From Methanococcoides seepicolus (GTDB lineage: Archaea; Halobacteriota; Methanosarcinia; Methanosarcinales; Methanosarcinaceae): a stretch of 41,519 bases of DNA. Under the pieces are notes generated by a model. The model was not told the DNA's origin. It made no database searches and worked only from the letters and a program-made list of their open reading frames with translations. The stretch lies in the NCBI RefSeq assembly GCF_023684405.1, contig NZ_JAGSOI010000017.1, positions 1-41,519 of the forward strand, read 5' to 3'. The stretch's first letter is position 1; every line of letters begins with the position of its first letter. Shown here piece after piece: positions 6,186-30,371 of this stretch. The position numbers and the translations under genes were made by a program.

Positions 6186-9100
6186 ATGACAGAAAACGGT
6201 CGTTTTGTCTCTATTGAAGATCTAGTGAACAAGGGGGAAGAGAAATACAAGTTCCTCATAGAGAATACAAGTGATATACTCTACATAGTGAATTCAGAAG
6301 GAATTGTGCTCTATATCAGCCCACAGATGAATCACTATGGGATCGATCCTAAAGATGTACAGAACACTCATTTTGAGGACCACGTATACCCGGATGATCG
6401 TGAAAGGCTCATTGATGATTTCCATAAGACGATGGAAAGTCGTAGAGCTTTTAATACAACTTTCAGATTGGTCGATAGCGAAGGAAATCCGCATTGGATG
6501 GAAACCCTGCCACAGTTCCAGAGCAATAAAGATGGCAGCTCAGCAGGCATAATTGGAGTTCTCAGAGATATAACAGAACATAAGCTCACGGAAGAGGATC
6601 TGCGGACATATCGCACACATCTTGAAAAGCTTGTTGATGAAAGGACCGCTGAACTGACAAAGGCAAACGAGGACCTAAAAAAGAAAATTGAGGAACGAAA
6701 GGAAATTGAAGCTTCCCTGAAAGAAGAGAAGGCCCGTTCAGACAGTATATTGCATGTGGCTCCAATCGGAATTGGAAAAGTCATTGGTCGGAAGATATTG
6801 GAAGTGAACGATGAAGTCTGTCGTATGACAGGATACCAACGATCAGAAATGATAGGACAGGATACCCAGAGATTCTACATTTCCAATGAAGATTACAAAA
6901 AGGCCGGGAAAGAGATATACACCAATCTAACTGAAAAACGAATAGCTACCGTAGAGTATCCTTTCAAAAGGAAGAACGGGCAGATAATAGATATACTGCT
7001 TAATTTTGCTCTTGCGGACCCTGAAGATGCTTCAAAAGGGTATATTTTCACAATGCAGGATATCACTGAGAAAAAGCTTGCTGAAAGGACCATTAGGGAA
7101 AAGGAAGCAAAGAACAGAAGTATCTTCCTTGCCACACCGATCGGAATTGGTGTTGTCTGGGACAGGGTATTCAAAGATGTGAATTAGGGATTCTGTGACA
7201 TTGTAGGCTACTCAAGAGAAGAGCTCATCGGAAGGAACGTAATGATATGTTACGATTCCGAAGAGGAGTACAATAAAGTTGGTACTGAGCTTATTAAGCT
7301 TATAAAAGACAGAACAACGGTAACTGTCGAAACAAAGCTCAGAAAAAAGGAAGGAAAACCTATTGACGTGCTACTAACAGTAGCCCTTGTAGATCCCAAC
7401 GATCCCGAAGTAGGAATGACCTTTACCGCACAGGACATCACCGAACAGAAAAGGATAGCCCTGGAAAAAGAGAAGAAAGAGCGACATATTCGCAGTATAT
7501 TCCAGGCAACACCAACCGGAATAGGGATCACATGGGCACGCAAGCTCCTCGATGTCAATGACAAACTGTATAAAATGTTCGGATATACAAAGGATGAACT
7601 TATCGGACAGGATACTGAGATCCTATATCCAAGCCGTGAAGAATATGAACGTGTCGGCAAAGAACTGAAGAGAATTATCGATAGCAAGAAACCGGGATTA
7701 ATAGAATCACAATGGGTTTGCAAAAACGGGGATATCAGAGATATCTATATGACATTTGCACTTATCGATGTTAATGACCCTTCGGCAGGAGTTACCTTTA
7801 CAGTGCAGGATTTTACAGAGAAAAAACTTGCCGAAGAAGATCTGTACAGACTTAACCAATTCCAGCAGACCATCATTGAAAGTGCAGATGTCTTGATAAA
7901 TGTCCTCAACAAGGATGCAGAGGTAATTGTTTGGAACAATGCTGCAGAGGCCATAAGTGGATATTCCAGGGAAGAAGTACTTGGAACCACAAAAATATGG
8001 GATCTCTTATATCCTGATAAAAAATATAGAAATGAGATCTTCGCCATAGCTACTGCCATCATAAACGAAGGACAGAAGGTATCAGGATTTGAAACCGTGA
8101 TCAAGAGAAAAGATGGAAATAAGCGCATAATATCATGGAATTCACGGGACCTTCTTGATGAGAGCGGCGAGACCATTGGCTCAATTGCAATTGGAAATGA
8201 CATCACTAGGCAAAAAGAAGCCGAGAAGGTGAAAAAACAACAAGTTCATTTCATGCAGGAACTTATCGATGCCATTCCAGTGCCAATATTCTATAAAGAC
8301 AAGGACGGAATCTACCTTGGATGCAACGATACTTTTGCAGAATTCACAGGCATTCCAAAAGAGGATATGATCGGAAAAGGTGTCTATGAGCTGTACGAGA
8401 AAGATATCGCAGAGAAGTACAATAAGATGAATACGGAGCTCATTGAAAAGGGAGGGACTCAGACATACGAGTACTACTTGCGATCAGTTTCCGGACAAAA
8501 CCGCGCAGTTATTTTTAACAATTCTATTTTCACAGATATAGATGGTAACGTTGCAGGACAGATCGGCGCAGTTTTCGATATAACAGAGCGTAAAGAGGCA
8601 GAGGAAGCCCAAAGAAAGCACGCCCATTTCATGCAGGAACTACTTGAAGCGATCCCTGCACCTGTGTACTATAAAGATAGGAATGGGAACTATCTTGGCT
8701 GCAACAGGGCCTTTGAGACATTTTCCGGTTCAAAATGTGAGGATATGGTAGGAAAGAACGCATATGAGGTATATGATGAAAAGCAGGCTGAAGAATACCA
8801 CCATATGGACCGGGAACTTGTGAAGAACGGCGGAACACAGACATACGAATCTGAAGTCGTTTACAGAGGGGATAGGACAGAACGTAATGTCCTTTTCAAT
8901 AAGTCAGTTTTCACTGACATGAATGGAGAAACTGCAGGACTTATAGGAGTTATCCTTGACATTACTCAGCGCGTGAGATCAGAAAACGAATTGAAAAAAC
9001 AGCTTCATTTCCTCCAGGAACTGATGGACGCTACACCTGCACCGATGTTCTATAAAGACAAAAAAGGACTATATATCGGATGTAACAAAGCTTTTGAAGA

Positions 9101-10067
9101 TATGACAGCTCATAAGAAAGAGGAAATTATTGGAAAAAGTGTATATGAGCTTTGTCAAAATGATCTTGCTTATAAATATCACGAAATGGATATGGAACTC
9201 ATGGCCAATGGAGGAATCCAGATATATGAAAGTCAGGTCGAAAATCCAGTGACAAAAAGCAGACAAGATGTGATATTCCACAAATCGGTCTTCACGGATA
9301 TGAATGGAGAAACGTTAGGACTTATTGGAGCCATCCTTGATATCACAGAACGTGTCAGGTCCGAAAAACTGCTTAAAAAATACTCTGAAGAACTTGAGCA
9401 TTCAAATGAACTCAAAGATATCTTTACAGACATCATGCGACATGACCTTTTGAACCACGCGACTGTGATAAGTGGATATACATACATGATGCTTTCTTCA
9501 GAAGATGATGAAACGAAGCTGAAAAGATTGGGAAAGATCGATCTCAGTACCAAAAATCTTATTGAACTTATTGAAAGTGCAGCTGCTTTTGCCAAACTGG
9601 AATCTACCGATGATCTGGAGTTTGAAGCCATTGATGTTGGTAATATGATAAATGGCATTATAGCCAACTTTGAGTATCAGGCAGAAGAAAAAGGTGTGGA
9701 TATCAGGATAATTTCGGAAGGGCCATGCACTGCACTTGCAAATCCAATGATAGAGGAAGTTTTCGTCAATTTAATATCAAATGCATTGAAATACGGATCT
9801 GACAAAGGGGACATAGGGGTCCGAATTGAAGATGCGGACGATAACTGTAAGATCGCGGTCACTGATTCAGGCGAAGGTATTTCCGACAAAGACAAGCCAT
9901 TGGTATTCGAGCGTTTCAAACGTGTGGGAAACAAGAGTATAAAGGGAAGCGGCCTTGGACTTGCTATCGTAAAAAGGATAGTTGACCTGCATAAAGGAAA
10001 GGTTGGTGTGGAAGATAATCCTGAAGGACAAGGTAGTATGTTCTGGGTCACATTGAAAAAAGCATAA
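6186..10067 (+). CDS. Giant multi-PAS sensor histidine kinase with one in-frame TAG codon
   Basis: The frame runs 1294 codons with a single TAG at 7185-7187 (codon 334). Without readthrough it gives a 333-residue PAS fragment and an orphan kinase half. The whole protein has about eight tandem PAS/PAC units (roughly residues 24-132, 185-302, 308-425, 432-550, 556-675, 683-800, 805-925, 930-1050), a coiled coil at about 138-185, a dimerisation helix with the phospho-acceptor His1086 (MRHDLLNH), and an ATPase domain with NLISNALKYG, DSGEGIS and GSGLGLAIVKRI. No membrane segment is seen, so it is cytosolic. The TAG lies in PAS 3 where the sibling PAS units have VND. Either UAG is decoded as pyrrolysine, or this is a fresh nonsense allele. 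No response regulator is adjacent. A cytochrome b5-like gene follows 47 bases later. Confidence 0.85.
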
Positions 10068-11791: not shown

Positions 11792-12556
11792 ATGAACAGT
11801 ACCATCAAACTGACCATCGTGGGCGGCATTGATAAAACAGGAATAGAAGAAGCTGTAAAGATCGTTGAAGTGAACCCCGGAGATATTCTGGGAATAGTCG
11901 GACCCACAGGGTCTGGAAAAAGTACCCTTATAGATGACATTGAGCAGCTCGCACAGGGCGATACTCCGACACAGCGCAGGATATTGATAAACGATACCGA
12001 GCCTGAAATGGGACTCAGAGTAGACCCACGCCGGAAACTGATAGCACAACTTTCCCAGAACATGCATTTTCTTGCTGATATGACCGTTTCGGAATTTATC
12101 CAGATGCATGCCCGGAGTCGTGGAAAGGACCCGGAACTCATGCATCGTGTCATCGAACTGGCAAACCGCCTCACGGGAGAGCCAATACATGAAGATGAAC
12201 AGCTTACGGTCTTAAGCGGAGGTCAATCCCGCTCCCTTATGACAGCGGATATTGCGGTCATCAGTGATTCCCCTATCGTGCTTATCGATGAGATCGAGAA
12301 TGCGGGCATCAAGAAACAGGAAGCACTAAGCTTACTATCCGGTGAAGGGAAAATAGTAGTGGTAGTGACACATGATCCGGTACTTGCACTAATGGCATCC
12401 CGCAGGATAGTCATCAGAAATGGCGGAATGTGTGATATCATAACCACAAGTGCTGAAGAAAAAAATATGTGTAACCGTGTTTCAGAGGTAGATGACTGGC
12501 TGATGGACCTGCGTGAGATAATAAGGCGCGGAGACCTGGTAGAAGGTGTGGCATGA
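11792..12556 (+). CDS. Soluble ABC-type ATPase of the coenzyme M operon, function unknown
   Basis: A 254-residue ABC ATPase with every motif in place: Walker [10 protein letters not shown] (about residues 37-45), signature LSGGQSRSL, Walker [11 protein letters not shown] and switch histidine VVTHDP. There is no membrane domain, and no permease or binding protein gene is near, so it is not an ordinary importer. It begins at the base after the cysteate synthase stop and overlaps the next gene by ATGA. Together with the following GTPase and Fe-S protein it forms a three-gene set inside the coenzyme M operon. A role as an ATP-driven assembly, sulfur-delivery or reductive-activation factor is inference. 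Family assignment is secure; function is not. Confidence 0.85.
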
Positions 12557-13251
12557 AACTTGTAGTGGTTGCAGGAACCCCGGGTTCCGGAAAAACGTCA
12601 GTATTACTGCATACGATAAAGGCATTGATAAGAAGAGAAAACAAACCGGCCGTTGTCAAGGTGGATTGCCTCTGGACAGATGACGATAAGAGATTTGGAA
12701 GGCTTGGAGTTCCCATACGTGTAGGCCTTGCAAAAGATATGTGTCCTGACCATTTTACCATATATAACACCGAGCCAATGCTCAAATGGGCAGAAGAAGA
12801 AGGTGCCGATGTGCTGCTCAATGAGACCGCAGGATTGTGCCTGAGGTGTGCACCATATCCGGACTCCTGCCTTGCTGTCTGCGTAATCGATGTTACCACA
12901 GGCCCGAACACACCTTTGAAAGTAGGACCACTGCTCACCACCGCCGATGTTGTGGTGATGACAAAAGGAGATATTGTCTCACAGGCAGAACGTGAAGTGT
13001 TCAGAGAGAGAGTTTTGGAAGTTAATCCTGATAGCATGGTCATCGAAGCCAACGGCCTTACAGGCAAAGGTTCTATCGAACTTGCCGAGCTGATAGAAAA
13101 CAGCGTCGAAACAAGAGAGGGCATGGAGTTGCGATACAGTCCACCGCTTGCTATCTGTACACTTTGCAGTGGCGAAAAACGTGTGGAACGTAAGTATCAC
13201 ATGGGAGTTCTACGACATCTGGATGGTTTCATGGAATACAAGGGGGAATGA
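12553..13251 (+). CDS. G3E/HypB-CooC-like GTPase of the coenzyme M operon
   Basis: A 232-residue P-loop NTPase resembling the G3E metallochaperone GTPases (HypB, UreG, CobW). The P-loop is [10 protein letters not shown] near the N terminus, the switch region has VKVDC and LLNETAGLC, and the base-specificity motif appears as MTKGD in place of NKxD. Cysteines cluster at [12 protein letters not shown] (about residues 95-106) and at CTLCSGEK near the end, suggesting metal or Fe-S binding. G3E proteins insert metals or complex cofactors into enzymes, so the neighbouring Fe-S enzymes are possible clients. It overlaps the ABC gene by four bases and ends three bases before the next start. Confidence 0.82.
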
Positions 13252-13254
13252 GCA

Positions 13255-13881
13255 TTGGATGACCTATTGGAACTCCTTCCTGGATATAATTGCGGCAAAT
13301 GCGGATACCAGCAATGCAGGGACCTTGCTGAGAACATTAGAACAGCCGATGATATCGGTCGTTGCCCGTTCATGGGAAAACAGCAATTCGCAAAGAACAG
13401 GAAGAAGTTGAAAGAACTTCTGAAAACAACGGTCAAACGGCTGGACATTGTTGGCGTTATTGACGGACTCGAAGCTGATTTCACCCTTGCACCGCTTGAT
13501 GGTGAGCCGACCTGCAGAGAAGACATTCATCCCATAGATGGTACCGAGTTCAAAGCAGGCGACTTTGTAAGATATAGACCCCTTGGCTGTCCAATAACAC
13601 ATTTCGCAAAGGTGATTGCATCAGGAAGAGGAATGACCACGATCCACATGGTGGGTCCACAACAACGTCTTGGAAATGAAGATATTGAGTTCATCGATGG
13701 TGGGATCTGCCTGATATTCGCTTTTGATGGGAAGATCGAGCAAGGACGCATCCCAAAGGTCGGTGAGACCGTGAAGTTCATCCCCACACTCTGCATGATG
13801 CAAAAGGTGCACTCCGGTATTGTTGTCGGCATAGAGGATAGGAACATAAGGATAGAAGCTATCGATCTTAAGGTGTGGTGA
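13255..13881 (+). CDS. 4Fe-4S (CODH-gamma-like) domain protein of the coenzyme M operon
   Basis: A 208-residue protein whose N terminus carries the four-cysteine motif NCGKCGYQQCRDLAENI...CPF of the Fe-S domain (PF04060 type) found in the acetyl-CoA synthase corrinoid Fe-S subunit and in activases. The rest (about residues 50-208) is a beta-rich region with no family I recognise; it repeats TxKFIPTL-like strands. The start is TTG at 13255, preceded by AGGGGGAA; no ATG fits the motif. It overlaps comD slightly if the longer comD start is used. As part of the ABC-GTPase-FeS trio, it may hand electrons or a cluster to the coenzyme M enzymes (inference). Confidence 0.8.
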   Translation: MDDLLELLPGYNCGKCGYQQCRDLAENIRTADDIGRCPFMGKQQFAKNRKKLKELLKTTVKRLDIVGVIDGLEADFTLAPLDGEPTCREDIHPIDGTEFKAGDFVRYRPLGCPITHFAKVIASGRGMTTIHMVGPQQRLGNEDIEFIDGGICLIFAFDGKIEQGRIPKVGETVKFIPTLCMMQKVHSGIVVGIEDRNIRIEAIDLKVW

Positions 13882-24587: not shown

Positions 24588-24659
24588 ATTTATCACATTA
24601 ATAGCCAAAATATAACAATTATTATAGTGTCATCAGATTATTTTAGACGGAGCAATGAT

Positions 24660-27600
24660 ATGAGTACTGTTAATAAAGAGCTGGAAGTAGCAAGACACAA
24701 TTTATTGGATCTCACAATGCGCAACTCATTGTTGAATTTCCATCCATCAAAAGACAGAAAAATAAGAGTGGTGGATGAAATACCAAGAGAGGTCTATGAT
24801 CGATTGGTTCTTCAAGAAAAGAAAATGGAGTTCCGTCCCAAATCAAAAAATCAAGATCAGAAATATGAAACATTTGCTGATGAAAACAAGTCAGACATAT
24901 CAAATGAAGATATTGACGATGACGAATCATCTTTACTTTGGAAAATGCCAGAGTCCAATGTAGAACTGGAAGGTAAACACACTGATCGTTTTCTTCAAAC
25001 AACACTGAAAAGTGAATATCTTCAAAAAAGAATGTACTATATTAGTCAGCAATCCCAATCGGTACTTGAAGAGCAGGGATATACTGTCCTGTATCTGGCT
25101 CTTGGATTTCTAGAGTGGGAAGACCCTACCACCACTTCCAAAATAAGGCAAGCTCCATTAATTCTTGTTCCTGTTGAATTGGTTCGCACAGTTGCAGGTG
25201 GTCCTTTTCAATTGTCATGGACAGGGGAAGACATATTCACAAATGTTTCTCTGCAGGCAAAGCTGATTGAAGACGGCATTTCACTTCCCGAATTTGAAAT
25301 GCCTGATGAGAAGGAAGGATTTGATCAATATTATCAAGATGTTGTAGAAGCTATCGCAAAAAAACCCAACTGGAAAGTTCTATCCGACATTAACTTGAGT
25401 TTCTTTAGCTTTACCAAGTTTGTTATGTATAAGGATCTTGATCAGATGGCATGGCCTGAGGATAATTCTCCAGCCAAGCATCCTTTGATAAAATGTATAT
25501 TTGATCCTGATACTCAAATTTGTGAAACTGAATTTTCTGAAGATGATGTTGACAAAAAAATTAATGCTCAAAATGTATATCACGTGATGGATGCCGATCC
25601 ATCTCAAATTGCTGTAATCGAGGATGTCAAATATGGCAAGAACGTGGTAGTAGAAGGGCCACCAGGGACAGGTAAATCTCAAACCATCACAAACATCATT
25701 GCCGAGCTTCTTGCAGCAGAAAAATCAGTACTTTTTGTTAGTGAAAAAATGGCAGCTCTTGAAGTGGTAAAAAGTCGTCTTGACCAGTCGGGTCTGGGTG
25801 ATTTTTGTCTTGAACTGCATAGCCGAAAATCAAACAAAAAAGAAGTTCTCAAAGAACTCGAACGCACTGTCTCCCTATCGCCTCCAAAATCGGTGTCTTT
25901 AGACAGCCGCTTTGATAAATTAGAATCGCTTAAAGCAGAATTAAACGATTATGCAAGTGCATTGAGAGAACCTTTCGGGTATATCAGACAGTCCCCATTC
26001 AATTTATTTTGTATGAAAGAGGATGCATTACGCTATTTTGAAAATGTTGGACGAGAAATGCCAAATGTTAAGTTTACCAATATTGAAAAATGTAGCCAAA
26101 AGGATTGGACAGAAGCAATATCAGCCCTTTCGAATATTTCCGACATATTATCTCTTGTAAAACCAGTCAATAATCACAAATGGAAAGGCTGTAAGTCAGG
26201 AATGATGCTTCCATCTGACGAATCTGAAATTGAAAAACTAATTGACGACTGTAAAATATCATTGGATAATCTTGTCGTTTCAGTAGATGATCTTTGTCAA
26301 CTTAGTTCGACAAATCTCCCCCATACTTTAAAAGAAATTCAATCATCTATTTCTGCTGCAAAAGTTGTAGCACTGTCAGGACCCATTGACAAAGAAGTTT
26401 TATTAAATCAAAATTGGGACAAAGAGCCTAGCACAACAACACCTCTAATTACAAAAATAAAGGATTTTCAGAAGCAAAGTTCAGCAATATATTCCATATT
26501 TATGGACGGTGCACTTGAAGAAGATATTGATTCTATTATCACAAAGTATAGGGTATTATCTGATAAGTATTTCATAATTCAATTTTTCGATAGCACATGT
26601 ATTAAGCATCTATGGAAGGGAAGTATCCCTCATAAAATACTTCCACCTGATGAAATTGAAATTGAAATACTGATTGATAAATGTAAAATGTCTTTGAATG
26701 ATTTTGAGAATACGATCAACAAGGTATGCGAGAGCGGTTCGATACATAGGCCTCTTACTTTAGAAGAGATAGAACCTTCTATTTCTGCTGCAAAAGTTGT
26801 GGCAGCCTCAAAACCTATCGATAAAGAGGTTTTATTAAATCAAGAATGGAATGAACAGAGCAATAAAGCAAAAATATTAATTAAACAGGTAGAAGATTTC
26901 CATGGACAAAGTTCTGCTTTACATTCCACATTTAGAGAGACTGCATTTGAACAGGATATTGAGTCTATTGCAAAGGAATATAAAGAACTATCTGCTAAAT
27001 TCATCGTATTCCGATCATTTAATAGTAGATATCGTTATCTGAAAAATGAAATATCTTCATTTTACAAAGACATTGCTCCTAAAAAAACAGAAGCTATCAT
27101 TGCGGATCTAAATGAGTTATCGGCATGCATTCAATCTCGAAAAGAAATTCGAAACTCGAACGAAAGTGGTCAGGGTCTTTTTGGTTCACACTGGAAAGAT
27201 GAAGAAAGTGATCCACAAATGCTTGATTCCTTTGCAAAATGGATCGTATCATTCCGTCAGCAGTTGTTGAAAGATGCCTTCGATGATCAAGTGGTTGATA
27301 AAGTCAGTTCAGGCATTTCCAAGGAAAATGTGAATAAATCAATCGATGATCTTTCTAGAGCCACAGAGCACTTTATTGAGCAACGTAATAATTTAGCAAA
27401 TCGCATAGGTGTGTCTCCAAAATCACTGTTTCCCACAAATAATGGGAATGTTTCTTTCGAAGATATTAACATCCAATTGGAACTATGGAAAAATGGTATT
27501 TTAGAACTTCAAAGATGGAAGAAGCTCACCAACGAATTCTACAGAAATACATCTCCTGAAAAGGCAGAGGCGATTATTTCGGACTTAAATGAGATTTCAG

Positions 27601-30371
27601 CATGCATTCAATCTCGAAACGAAATTCGAGAGTTAAATGAAACTGGACTAGCTATTTTTGGATCACATTGGAAAGATGAAGATAGTGATCCACAAAAACT
27701 TGAATCTTTTGTAGAATGGATGATCTCCTTCCGTCACTATTTATTGAACAAAGCATTTGATGAACATATATTTGACAAAATCAGTTCTGGTATTTCTAAA
27801 GAAGAACTGGAAAAAGCGATAGAAGATGTATCAAAAACCGTAGATATCTTTGCAGAACAACGCGATAAATTATTTAATCGGCTCAATTTAGATCACAAAC
27901 TAGTATTTGGTACTAATATTGACATTGTATGTATTGAGGACACGGATTCTCAACTTAAGTTGTGGAAAGAAGGAATCCCCAAGCTCCAGAAATGGGGACA
28001 ATTTACTGTTCGTAGAGAGCAATGTCTTGAAACGTTTGCAGCTCCAATTGTAAATCTTATTGATTCGGATCTCATGGAATCTGAGGATATAATTCCATGC
28101 TTTGAAGGTAATTTTGCAGAAGATCTTCTTCGATGCGCATTCATGGAAAGGCAAACCTTGGCAAGTTTTATGGGTGAACTTCATGAGAAAAAAATTAAAA
28201 CTTTCACAGAACTCGATCGTGAACTGATTTTCGAGAACCGACAGAGACTTGCATATTTGCTTTATGAAAGACAACCACCGATTCCCAGAGGTGCATCTCC
28301 GAAATCAGAGGCTGGCATTCTATTAGGAGAATTCAACCGAAAGCGCAAGCATATGCCCATTAGAAAGCTAATGAAAAATGCCGGTGGCTTAATACAAAAG
28401 ATTAAACCTTGTTTCATGATGAGTCCACTATCAATAGCGCAGTTTCTTGATCCCCTCAATATCAATTTTGATGTGGTTGTTTTTGATGAGGCTAGCCAAG
28501 TGCGACCCGAAGATGCTTTAGGAGCACTATTACGTGCAAACCAGTGTGTGATAATAGGAGATACTCGTCAACTTCCACCTACAAGTTTCTTTGACAAGAT
28601 AATTGATTCAATGGATGATTCCGATGAAGAGAATACAACATTATCGGATATCGAAAGCATACTTCACTTATGCAAGCGTAGTTTCCTGACAAAGAATCTT
28701 CGTTGGCATTATCGCAGTAGGCATGAATCATTAATTGCGGTTTCTAATCAGGAATTTTATGATCAGAATCTCGTGATCTACCCCTCACCTATGGCTGATA
28801 TGGAACACTTGGGACTAAAGTTTGTTCATTTACCTGATACTGTCTATGTTCGAGGGAAAAGTGGAGGGAAAAGTGAAGGGAATCGGAAAGAGGCAAAAGC
28901 TGTGGCAAAAGCTGCTCTGGAACACTTCACAAAATATCCCGATAAAAGTCTTGGAATTGGTACATTTAATATGAACCAGAAGCAAATCATACTGGAAGAA
29001 GTCGAAATGCTGCTCAAGGAACAGCCTGATATGACTGAGTTCTTCGAAAGTAAACGTCCTGATCATTTCTTTGTCAAGAATCTGGAAACAATACAGGGTG
29101 ACGAGAGAGACGTTATTTTTATAAGCGTTGGTTTTGGTTTTGATAGAGACCACAATTTTAGGCTTCAGTTTGGCGCACTCAATCGGGAAGGAGGAGAAAG
29201 AAGATTAAATGTCCTGATAACTCGTGCACGTGAAAAATGTGTTGTGTTCTCCAATTTCCAGGCAAAGGATCTTGCAACTATTCAAACTTCACCATTTGGA
29301 GTGAAAGCTTTGAAAACATTTTTAGACTTTGCCGAAAACAGGAATCTCCAAACAATTGAAGCTACAGGAAAAGACAGTGATTCACCGTTTGAAGATTCAG
29401 TTTATGATTTCCTTCTAGATTGTGGATATGATGCTCAAAAACAGGTTGGTTGTGCAGGCTATAGACTGGATCTAGCAGTTGTTGATCCCAACTCCCGTGG
29501 ACGATACCTTCTAGGAATTGAATGTGATGGTGCTAAATATCACTCATCTCCAGTTGCAAGAGATAGGGACAGACTACGCCAACAGGTTCTTGAAAACCTA
29601 GGCTGGACAATTTATCGTATCTGGTCTACAGACTGGTATCGAAATAAGAATGATTGCAAGATAAGGCTAAGGGATTTTATTGAGAAGACTAAGCTAAATA
29701 CTCCCAAACCCACAATAAATAAGAATAAACCATTGGAAAACCCAGTAAAAATACTGGATTCAGGTGTTGAGCGGGAAGAGGTTAATGAATCTTGTATTTC
29801 GAATGAAGGAACACTTCTTGACCTTGTTCCCGAATACAGAATATGTTCTGAAATCGACATCGATACACAGACACAAATACATGAACTGTCACATTCTGAG
29901 CTTGAAATAGCTATCATCCAGATCCTAAAAATTGAATCTCCTGTTCATATAGATGAGATGATAAAACGTATTCGTGAAAACCATGGCTTAAAAAGAACCG
30001 GTCCGAAAATCAAAAATGCAATCATAGAAGCTGTGAATTATTCAGAAAGGAATGGAAAACTTGTCAAACGTGGAGATTTCCTTTGGATGGACATCAATGA
30101 TGTAAAGGTTCGTCGGCGAGGCAAGGAAGTTGCTGCAAAGATAGAAATGATCTGTAATGAGGAAATAGCTGAAGCTGCAAAACTGGTTATTAAAAGTCAG
30201 CACGCTACATCCCCTGATGAACTAGTGGTTCAAACATCACGTTTGTTCGGAATTCGATCCACCAGCGGAACGATTGCGGAGAGAATAAAGGGTGTTGTTA
30301 GTAAAATGATTGATAAGAACGAATTGAGGGTTTTATCGAGTGGTATGGTAGACATTGTTGAGTCAAGATAA
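24660..30371 (+). CDS. DUF4011 / SF1 helicase / Vsr-like nuclease / DUF3320 protein (Hhe-like defence candidate)
   Basis: A 1903-residue protein. Order: DUF4011 (about 1-300, ARHNLLDLTMRNSLLNF), SF1 helicase motor with Walker A GPPGTGKS at 333-340 and DEAS at 1276-1279, GDTRQLPPTSF, LITRAREKC near 1520, a PD-(D/E)xK Vsr/DUF559-like nuclease (about 1575-1675, SPFEDSVYDFLL, RLDLAVVD, Glu1621-x-Asp1623 in GIECDG), and DUF3320 (about 1750-1895). From memory, DUF4011-helicase-Vsr proteins were reported as single-gene phage defence (Hhe). About 930 residues separate the two ATPase halves and hold two tandem duplications (see repeats). The gene is visibly AT-richer than uvrC, has its own promoter and no partner gene, which suggests transfer. 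The ATG at 24660 has GGAGC upstream and is preferred to GTG at 24627. Confidence 0.9.
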   Translation: MSTVNKELEVARHNLLDLTMRNSLLNFHPSKDRKIRVVDEIPREVYDRLVLQEKKMEFRPKSKNQDQKYETFADENKSDISNEDIDDDESSLLWKMPESNVELEGKHTDRFLQTTLKSEYLQKRMYYISQQSQSVLEEQGYTVLYLALGFLEWEDPTTTSKIRQAPLILVPVELVRTVAGGPFQLSWTGEDIFTNVSLQAKLIEDGISLPEFEMPDEKEGFDQYYQDVVEAIAKKPNWKVLSDINLSFFSFTKFVMYKDLDQMAWPEDNSPAKHPLIKCIFDPDTQICETEFSEDDVDKKINAQNVYHVMDADPSQIAVIEDVKYGKNVVVEGPPGTGKSQTITNIIAELLAAEKSVLFVSEKMAALEVVKSRLDQSGLGDFCLELHSRKSNKKEVLKELERTVSLSPPKSVSLDSRFDKLESLKAELNDYASALREPFGYIRQSPFNLFCMKEDALRYFENVGREMPNVKFTNIEKCSQKDWTEAISALSNISDILSLVKPVNNHKWKGCKSGMMLPSDESEIEKLIDDCKISLDNLVVSVDDLCQLSSTNLPHTLKEIQSSISAAKVVALSGPIDKEVLLNQNWDKEPSTTTPLITKIKDFQKQSSAIYSIFMDGALEEDIDSIITKYRVLSDKYFIIQFFDSTCIKHLWKGSIPHKILPPDEIEIEILIDKCKMSLNDFENTINKVCESGSIHRPLTLEEIEPSISAAKVVAASKPIDKEVLLNQEWNEQSNKAKILIKQVEDFHGQSSALHSTFRETAFEQDIESIAKEYKELSAKFIVFRSFNSRYRYLKNEISSFYKDIAPKKTEAIIADLNELSACIQSRKEIRNSNESGQGLFGSHWKDEESDPQMLDSFAKWIVSFRQQLLKDAFDDQVVDKVSSGISKENVNKSIDDLSRATEHFIEQRNNLANRIGVSPKSLFPTNNGNVSFEDINIQLELWKNGILELQRWKKLTNEFYRNTSPEKAEAIISDLNEISACIQSRNEIRELNETGLAIFGSHWKDEDSDPQKLESFVEWMISFRHYLLNKAFDEHIFDKISSGISKEELEKAIEDVSKTVDIFAEQRDKLFNRLNLDHKLVFGTNIDIVCIEDTDSQLKLWKEGIPKLQKWGQFTVRREQCLETFAAPIVNLIDSDLMESEDIIPCFEGNFAEDLLRCAFMERQTLASFMGELHEKKIKTFTELDRELIFENRQRLAYLLYERQPPIPRGASPKSEAGILLGEFNRKRKHMPIRKLMKNAGGLIQKIKPCFMMSPLSIAQFLDPLNINFDVVVFDEASQVRPEDALGALLRANQCVIIGDTRQLPPTSFFDKIIDSMDDSDEENTTLSDIESILHLCKRSFLTKNLRWHYRSRHESLIAVSNQEFYDQNLVIYPSPMADMEHLGLKFVHLPDTVYVRGKSGGKSEGNRKEAKAVAKAALEHFTKYPDKSLGIGTFNMNQKQIILEEVEMLLKEQPDMTEFFESKRPDHFFVKNLETIQGDERDVIFISVGFGFDRDHNFRLQFGALNREGGERRLNVLITRAREKCVVFSNFQAKDLATIQTSPFGVKALKTFLDFAENRNLQTIEATGKDSDSPFEDSVYDFLLDCGYDAQKQVGCAGYRLDLAVVDPNSRGRYLLGIECDGAKYHSSPVARDRDRLRQQVLENLGWTIYRIWSTDWYRNKNDCKIRLRDFIEKTKLNTPKPTINKNKPLENPVKILDSGVEREEVNESCISNEGTLLDLVPEYRICSEIDIDTQTQIHELSHSELEIAIIQILKIESPVHIDEMIKRIRENHGLKRTGPKIKNAIIEAVNYSERNGKLVKRGDFLWMDINDVKVRRRGKEVAAKIEMICNEEIAEAAKLVIKSQHATSPDELVVQTSRLFGIRSTSGTIAERIKGVVSKMIDKNELRVLSSGMVDIVESR
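26181..27044 (+). repeat. Intragenic tandem duplication A (2 x 144 codons) in the helicase
   Basis: Copy 1 at 26181-26612 (residues 508-651) and copy 2 at 26613-27044 (residues 652-795), exactly 432 bases apart. Shared landmarks: the WKG start, IEKLIDDCK / IEILIDKCK, SISAAKVVA, PIDKEVLLNQ and QSSAxxS. The units are diverged, so the duplication is old. Predicted to be a helical stalk between the helicase halves. Confidence 0.85.
27060..28013 (+). repeat. Intragenic tandem duplication B (2 x 159 codons) in the helicase
   Basis: Copy 1 at 27060-27536 (residues 801-959) and copy 2 at 27537-28013 (960-1118), exactly 477 bases apart. Landmarks in both: SACIQSR, GSHWKDE, SDPQ, SSGISKE, and a closing LQRW / LQKW. 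Short identical DNA stretches of about 20 bases remain, so this duplication looks younger than duplication A and is unrelated to it in sequence. Confidence 0.88.

Follow-up and report, generated by a model that had tools for sequence, protein, structure and literature searches.

A gene for a multi-PAS histidine kinase in Methanococcoides seepicolus carries one TAG codon within its reading frame, which raises the question of whether UAG is read at this point as pyrrolysine (Pyl), giving a full-length sensor, or whether it acts as a stop in a gene that has recently been broken. The gene lies in a window of 41,519 nucleotides, the whole stretch of DNA that was analysed, which is one entire contig of a 2.80-Mb draft genome (G000). 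In M. acetivorans, 20-30% read-through of an introduced amber codon, with insertion of Pyl, has been reported (PMC2933860), and the tRNA-His guanylyltransferase of this species, Thg1, contains a tolerated Pyl that has been ascribed to neutral evolution (Heinemann et al. 2009, via PMC2933860); in addition, a UAG-interrupted sensory transduction histidine kinase was described as Cluster 16 in M. acetivorans, M. mahii and M. barkeri (Have et al. 2013, PMC3639795). Since the genome examined here decodes Pyl and TAG occurs inside many genes of the genus, the best reading is that the kinase TAG is a newly drifted, tolerated Pyl site in a full-length kinase of a UAG-decoding Methanococcoides, and comparison of sequences makes this reading highly probable.

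The kinase frame and the context of codon 334

The frame runs from ATG 6186 to TAA 10065-10067, and the TAG at 7185-7187 is its sole internal stop in 1293 codons (Table 1), as had been claimed when the two open stretches on either side of it were first described. Profile searches placed the TIGR00229 PAS S-box in eight stretches, followed by a C-terminal HATPase_c domain; no Pfam HisKA match was obtained in the translation, in which an RHDLLN motif was seen by eye. The codon-usage score is coding-like on both sides of the TAG (0.29 before, 0.34 after), and no frameshift or second lesion accompanies it in the frame. This intactness speaks against one alternative, namely that the TAG is a fresh nonsense allele at which UAG stops translation, leaving a 333-residue PAS fragment that lacks the kinase domain, in a gene that is on its way out.

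Reading across the TAG keeps the third PAS unit going, as DVN-[TAG]-GFCDIVGYSREELIG, beside EVNDEV and DVNDKL at the equivalent point of sibling units, and the sequence-only reading was right that the domain is unbroken past the stop. The conserved Asn of the DVN motif immediately precedes codon 334, which provides the first residue of the next helix in an AlphaFold2 model whose confidence is moderate (mean pLDDT 72). The residue found there is Gln or Asp in homologues and Asp in the sibling units, and because the position is variable within the PAS fold, Pyl334 would be expected to be near neutral. A search for stable RNA structure 3' of the TAG found none that stands out (z -0.70), and Rfam gave zero matches across the window.

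A second alternative invokes two polypeptides: UAG would act as a stop, and re-initiation at ATG 7242 (Met353) would add to the PAS fragment a 941-residue kinase in which half of PAS unit 3 is missing. A Shine-Dalgarno-like GGAAGG located six bases 5' of this ATG would suit such a restart, but the bases of this region encode a conserved PAS motif and are largely alike in the orthologues that carry CAG at codon 334, so that no second function is needed to account for them; moreover, the split would cut inside a domain. Re-initiation is regarded as very improbable.

Every complete gene called in the window, bar a doubtful 20-codon ORF, had also been said to end in TAA or TGA, and this was borne out in a non-overlapping ORF set, where no other ORF of at least 100 aa ends in TAG. 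The window further encodes a protein of 1914 residues (24627-30371) in which DUF4011, AAA helicase domains, DUF3320 and an MTES_1575 nuclease domain were recognised; it resembles a large helicase-nuclease and may serve in anti-phage defence.

Table 1. Features of the kinase gene, with positions in the window
Feature	Position	Strand	Remarks
Multi-PAS histidine kinase gene	6186..10067	+	1293 codons plus TAA if TAG is sense; full-length orthologues in G001 and G007
In-frame TAG, codon 334	7185..7187	+	Proposed pyrrolysine; CAG (Gln) in G001, G007 and G008
Third PAS unit, containing the TAG, residues 304-424	7095..7457	+	TIGR00229 stretch 304-424, alignment, AlphaFold2 model
RHD of the RHDLLN motif, residues 1085-1087	9438..9446	+	By eye in the translation
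His1086, candidate phospho-accepting residue	9441-9443	+	RHDLLN motif, by eye
HATPase_c, residues 1189-1292, 3' of the TAG	9750..10061	+	PF02518, E 8.9e-25
Longest post-TAG ORF in the standard code, 941 codons	7242..10067	+	Matters only for the re-initiation alternative

Pyrrolysine machinery and release factor

In the kinase-bearing genome, pylT, pylS, pylB, pylC and pylD stand in a row on contig C1. The tRNA-Pyl, with a CTA anticodon, was located by ARAGORN at L037:2883-2954; pylS matches TIGR02367 and NF007083 above cut-off, and the adjacent pylB, pylC and pylD match TIGR03910, TIGR03909 and TIGR03911, all likewise above cut-off. Pfam PF21360 missed pylC, which was then found as an ORF of the cluster and named by NCBIfam. 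The full set for which the sequence-only reading had suggested looking is thus at hand, and since the genome has pyl genes, the objection that it might lack them falls away. Three mtmB matches were also found, each with one in-frame TAG, two of the three copies lying on contigs that have a near-identical stretch in common. Decoding of Pyl by this genome is supported by the pylTSBCD genes together with the TAG-bearing mtmB copies, and the presence of the machinery counts against a nonsense allele in the kinase.

What favours the nonsense allele here is the existence of one canonical aRF1: a single match over cut-off was obtained per genome, with the NIKS motif intact in the five sequences read. 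A close aRF1 with intact NIKS implies that some UAG termination may occur. An altered release factor was also considered, and was rejected on the same observations, one match per genome and an intact NIKS motif in the five sequences.

It is of note that pylB itself ends in TAG (L037:5379-5381; L131-L141) in 11 of 11 Methanococcoides genomes, the next stop being a TGA exactly 42 codons further on, which overlaps pylC in another frame. In other genera, the terminal codon of pylB is TAG (g7, g11 and g2) or TGA (g4), and the TAG was already known in M. mazei, M. acetivorans and M. burtonii (PMC2933860). The retention of this TAG end in all 11 genomes indicates that some UAGs may terminate.

The kinase in related genomes

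The nearest named relatives are M. alaskense DSM 17273 (G001) and two Methanococcoides MAGs (G007, G008). Codon 334 is CAG (Gln) in all three close orthologues, and the TAG is therefore private to one genome and one C-to-T step away from Gln; it had been called fresh, and this description holds. A private TAG at a CAG site counts in favour of a nonsense allele, and the sequence-only reading had held that Gln or Glu in all orthologues, with no spanning peptide in this strain, would tell against Pyl. As worded, Gln in 3 of 3 leans that way, but what it shows is that Pyl is not required at this position, not that UAG terminates there.

The M. alaskense orthologue, which is 94% identical, has a single TAG of its own at codon 421, a position that is Gln in the others. 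Shorter homologues in G003 and G005, 52-59% identical in the matched parts, have in common a TAG about 20 codons in, at a site that is Glu in most relatives. Over the approximately 900 codons 3' of this common TAG, comparison of the two gives a dS of 0.194 and a dN/dS of 0.184, which suggests that purifying selection continued to act on the protein while it carried the TAG, although this is weakened somewhat by an ambiguous start codon, for which reason the early TAG is weaker evidence than it looks. Where ATG would be expected as the start, the kinase homologues of G003-G006 and G009 (L143, L144, L145, L146, L147) instead have an ATA or ATC, which lies behind a G-rich stretch at the usual Shine-Dalgarno spacing; G010 has ATG at this place.

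Before the TAG, the window's kinase shows 10 private changes that are synonymous and 3 that are nonsynonymous; after it (to codon 933), the corresponding counts are 15 and 6. There is no relaxed selection 3' of the TAG, but these changes are few, and their distribution is a weak test for so young a TAG.

A different outcome is seen in G002 (2,575,032 bp), which we take to be M. burtonii, where the kinase is gone except for its end and both flanks are kept. The kinase is therefore dispensable in the genus, and its deletion there is a further point in favour of a gene on its way out. Close by, approximately 2 kb at window positions ~11807-13857 have no counterpart at the syntenic position of G001, G007 and G008; in G002, the match runs on into this region, to the end of the compared stretch.

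A third alternative is that the base at 7185 was miscalled or misassembled, for which one could point to the single draft assembly and to two contigs of it, C115 and C69, that have 33 kb in common at 99.93% identity, with 10 mismatches. This overlap suggests a redundant or mixed-strain assembly, mixed strains being possible where 33 kb are near-identical on two contigs. No second kinase allele was found in the genome, however, and similar TAGs occur in other genomes, including that of M. alaskense DSM 17273, and an error at this base is considered exceedingly improbable.

TAG codons inside genes across Methanococcoides

Stop statistics were drawn from stretches of ~0.2-0.43 Mb per genome. TAG ends 10 of 383 ORFs of at least 100 aa in a 434-kb sample of the kinase-bearing genome, four of these ten being the kinase and the three mtmB copies, and among ORFs with a minimum length of 150 aa in the stretches sampled from five genomes its share of terminators is 1.7-3.9%. 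A first homology screen for in-frame stops was dropped, many antisense and shadow ORFs having been counted. In a filtered screen, which required that homology extend past the stop and that composition be coding-like before and after it, ~1.2 Mb from three Methanococcoides genomes yielded coding interruptions by 8 TAG, 1 TAA and 0 TGA; given the codons that lie one step from each stop, the probability that TAG would make up at least 8 of the 9 is 0.002-0.006. A looser, wider screen gave 25 TAG, 4 TGA and 2 TAA, a TAG count that takes in conserved mtbB- and mttB-looking sites and tallies shared sites more than once; by eye, the six TGA and TAA cases are apparently shadow frames or a transposase.

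The genes concerned are of an ordinary kind. In G002, TAG occurs in ThiI, an isocitrate/isopropylmalate dehydrogenase family enzyme (Iso_dh), a HerA-like ATPase and a VWA-like protein, and in M. alaskense in a LarE-like protein (the labels LarE-like and VWA-like are our own reading); the HerA-like ATPase has its TAG at different codons in M. alaskense and in G002. TAG mostly stands in for Gln, Glu, Ser or Tyr, residues that can each be encoded by a codon a single substitution away from it.

A wider sample adds two further cases. SepCysS, of tRNA-dependent cysteine synthesis, carries a TAG in G005 (G005:C1:2076579, within L175) where the G006 orthologue has Gln. A Cam-type gamma-carbonic anhydrase (L195, G000:C73:14234-14860; also L193, L194, L196 and L197) has TAG at codon 91 in 5 of 11 Methanococcoides genomes, one of them the genome of the window; the remaining six have Gln. 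A conserved SLAHQSQIHG stretch lies 3' of the TAG. Low dN/dS before the codon, and mostly after it as well, points to a Pyl site of long standing that has been maintained in a protein other than a methyltransferase.

The fact that interruptions in the genus are nearly all TAG, and hardly TAA or TGA, counts against a nonsense allele. Together with the separate TAG 421 of M. alaskense and the purifying selection that continues past the TAG in G003 and G005, this bias indicates that the kinase is not a simple dead allele, and a fresh nonsense allele is judged unlikely.

A probable tolerated pyrrolysine site

In the preferred reading, that of a tolerated Pyl site, a recent C-to-T change would have turned the CAG of Gln334 into TAG, and Pyl-tRNA supplied by the genome's own pylTSBCD would place pyrrolysine at this codon, giving the full 1293-residue kinase, perhaps with some truncated 333-residue PAS-only product. 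We infer that TAG 334 is read efficiently and that Pyl is the residue inserted.

Among the closest known systems is Thg1, in which the TAG likewise occurs in one species only, interrupts an ordinary gene of a methanogen that decodes Pyl, has no counterpart in the orthologues and specifies a Pyl that is not needed for function; as would be expected of such a neutral site, frame and homology in the kinase are unbroken across the TAG and the orthologues have an ordinary residue. Pyl was physically observed in Thg1, whereas in the kinase it is deduced from sequence. Cluster 16 likewise concerns a sensor histidine kinase of Methanosarcinaceae with an in-frame UAG, predicted computationally, and is likened here by description. 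MtmB, MtbB and MttB, methyltransferases in which TAG is read as Pyl, have in-frame TAGs in the same genomes, but theirs are conserved and catalytic; the kinase TAG is private, with CAG at codon 334 in relatives, and occupies a variable, non-catalytic position. Finally, Kivenson and colleagues (Science, 2025) reportedly described an archaeal "Pyl code" in which all TAG codons are Pyl. Methanococcoides resembles it in having TAG in ordinary genes genus-wide and TAG termination rare. Its reassignment may be only partial: some ORFs retain TAG as their last codon, pylB doing so in all 11 genomes.

Of the initial proposal, the Pyl-containing full-length sensor stands as the best reading, carried by the pyl genes and the TAGs of the genus, whereas a functional or regulatory role for Pyl is not supported. 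Control of kinase synthesis by Pyl supply is unsupported because the site is not conserved, the relatives have their TAG elsewhere or none, and G002 has lost the gene. The codon has the look of an accidental mutation that a TAG-coding genus can tolerate, not of a special switch.

Implications

The kinase TAG is a new instance of drifted Pyl sites, a kind already known. There is a slightly better than even case that UAG in Methanococcoides is effectively an ordinary Pyl sense codon, and that drift of codons one base away from TAG has made much of physiology dependent on Pyl supply, even without methylamines; with TAG drifting into housekeeping genes such as the kinase, ThiI, SepCysS and the carbonic anhydrase, two-component signalling and tRNA modification would on the same reading need Pyl. 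If this is true, automatic annotation splits or drops TAG-bearing genes, and sensors and housekeeping enzymes of the genus would contain an amino acid that is usually regarded as restricted to methylamine methyltransferases. Methanococcoides would also offer a natural test of the change of a stop into a sense codon, with independent TAGs in orthologues of one gene and CAG-bearing relatives as controls.
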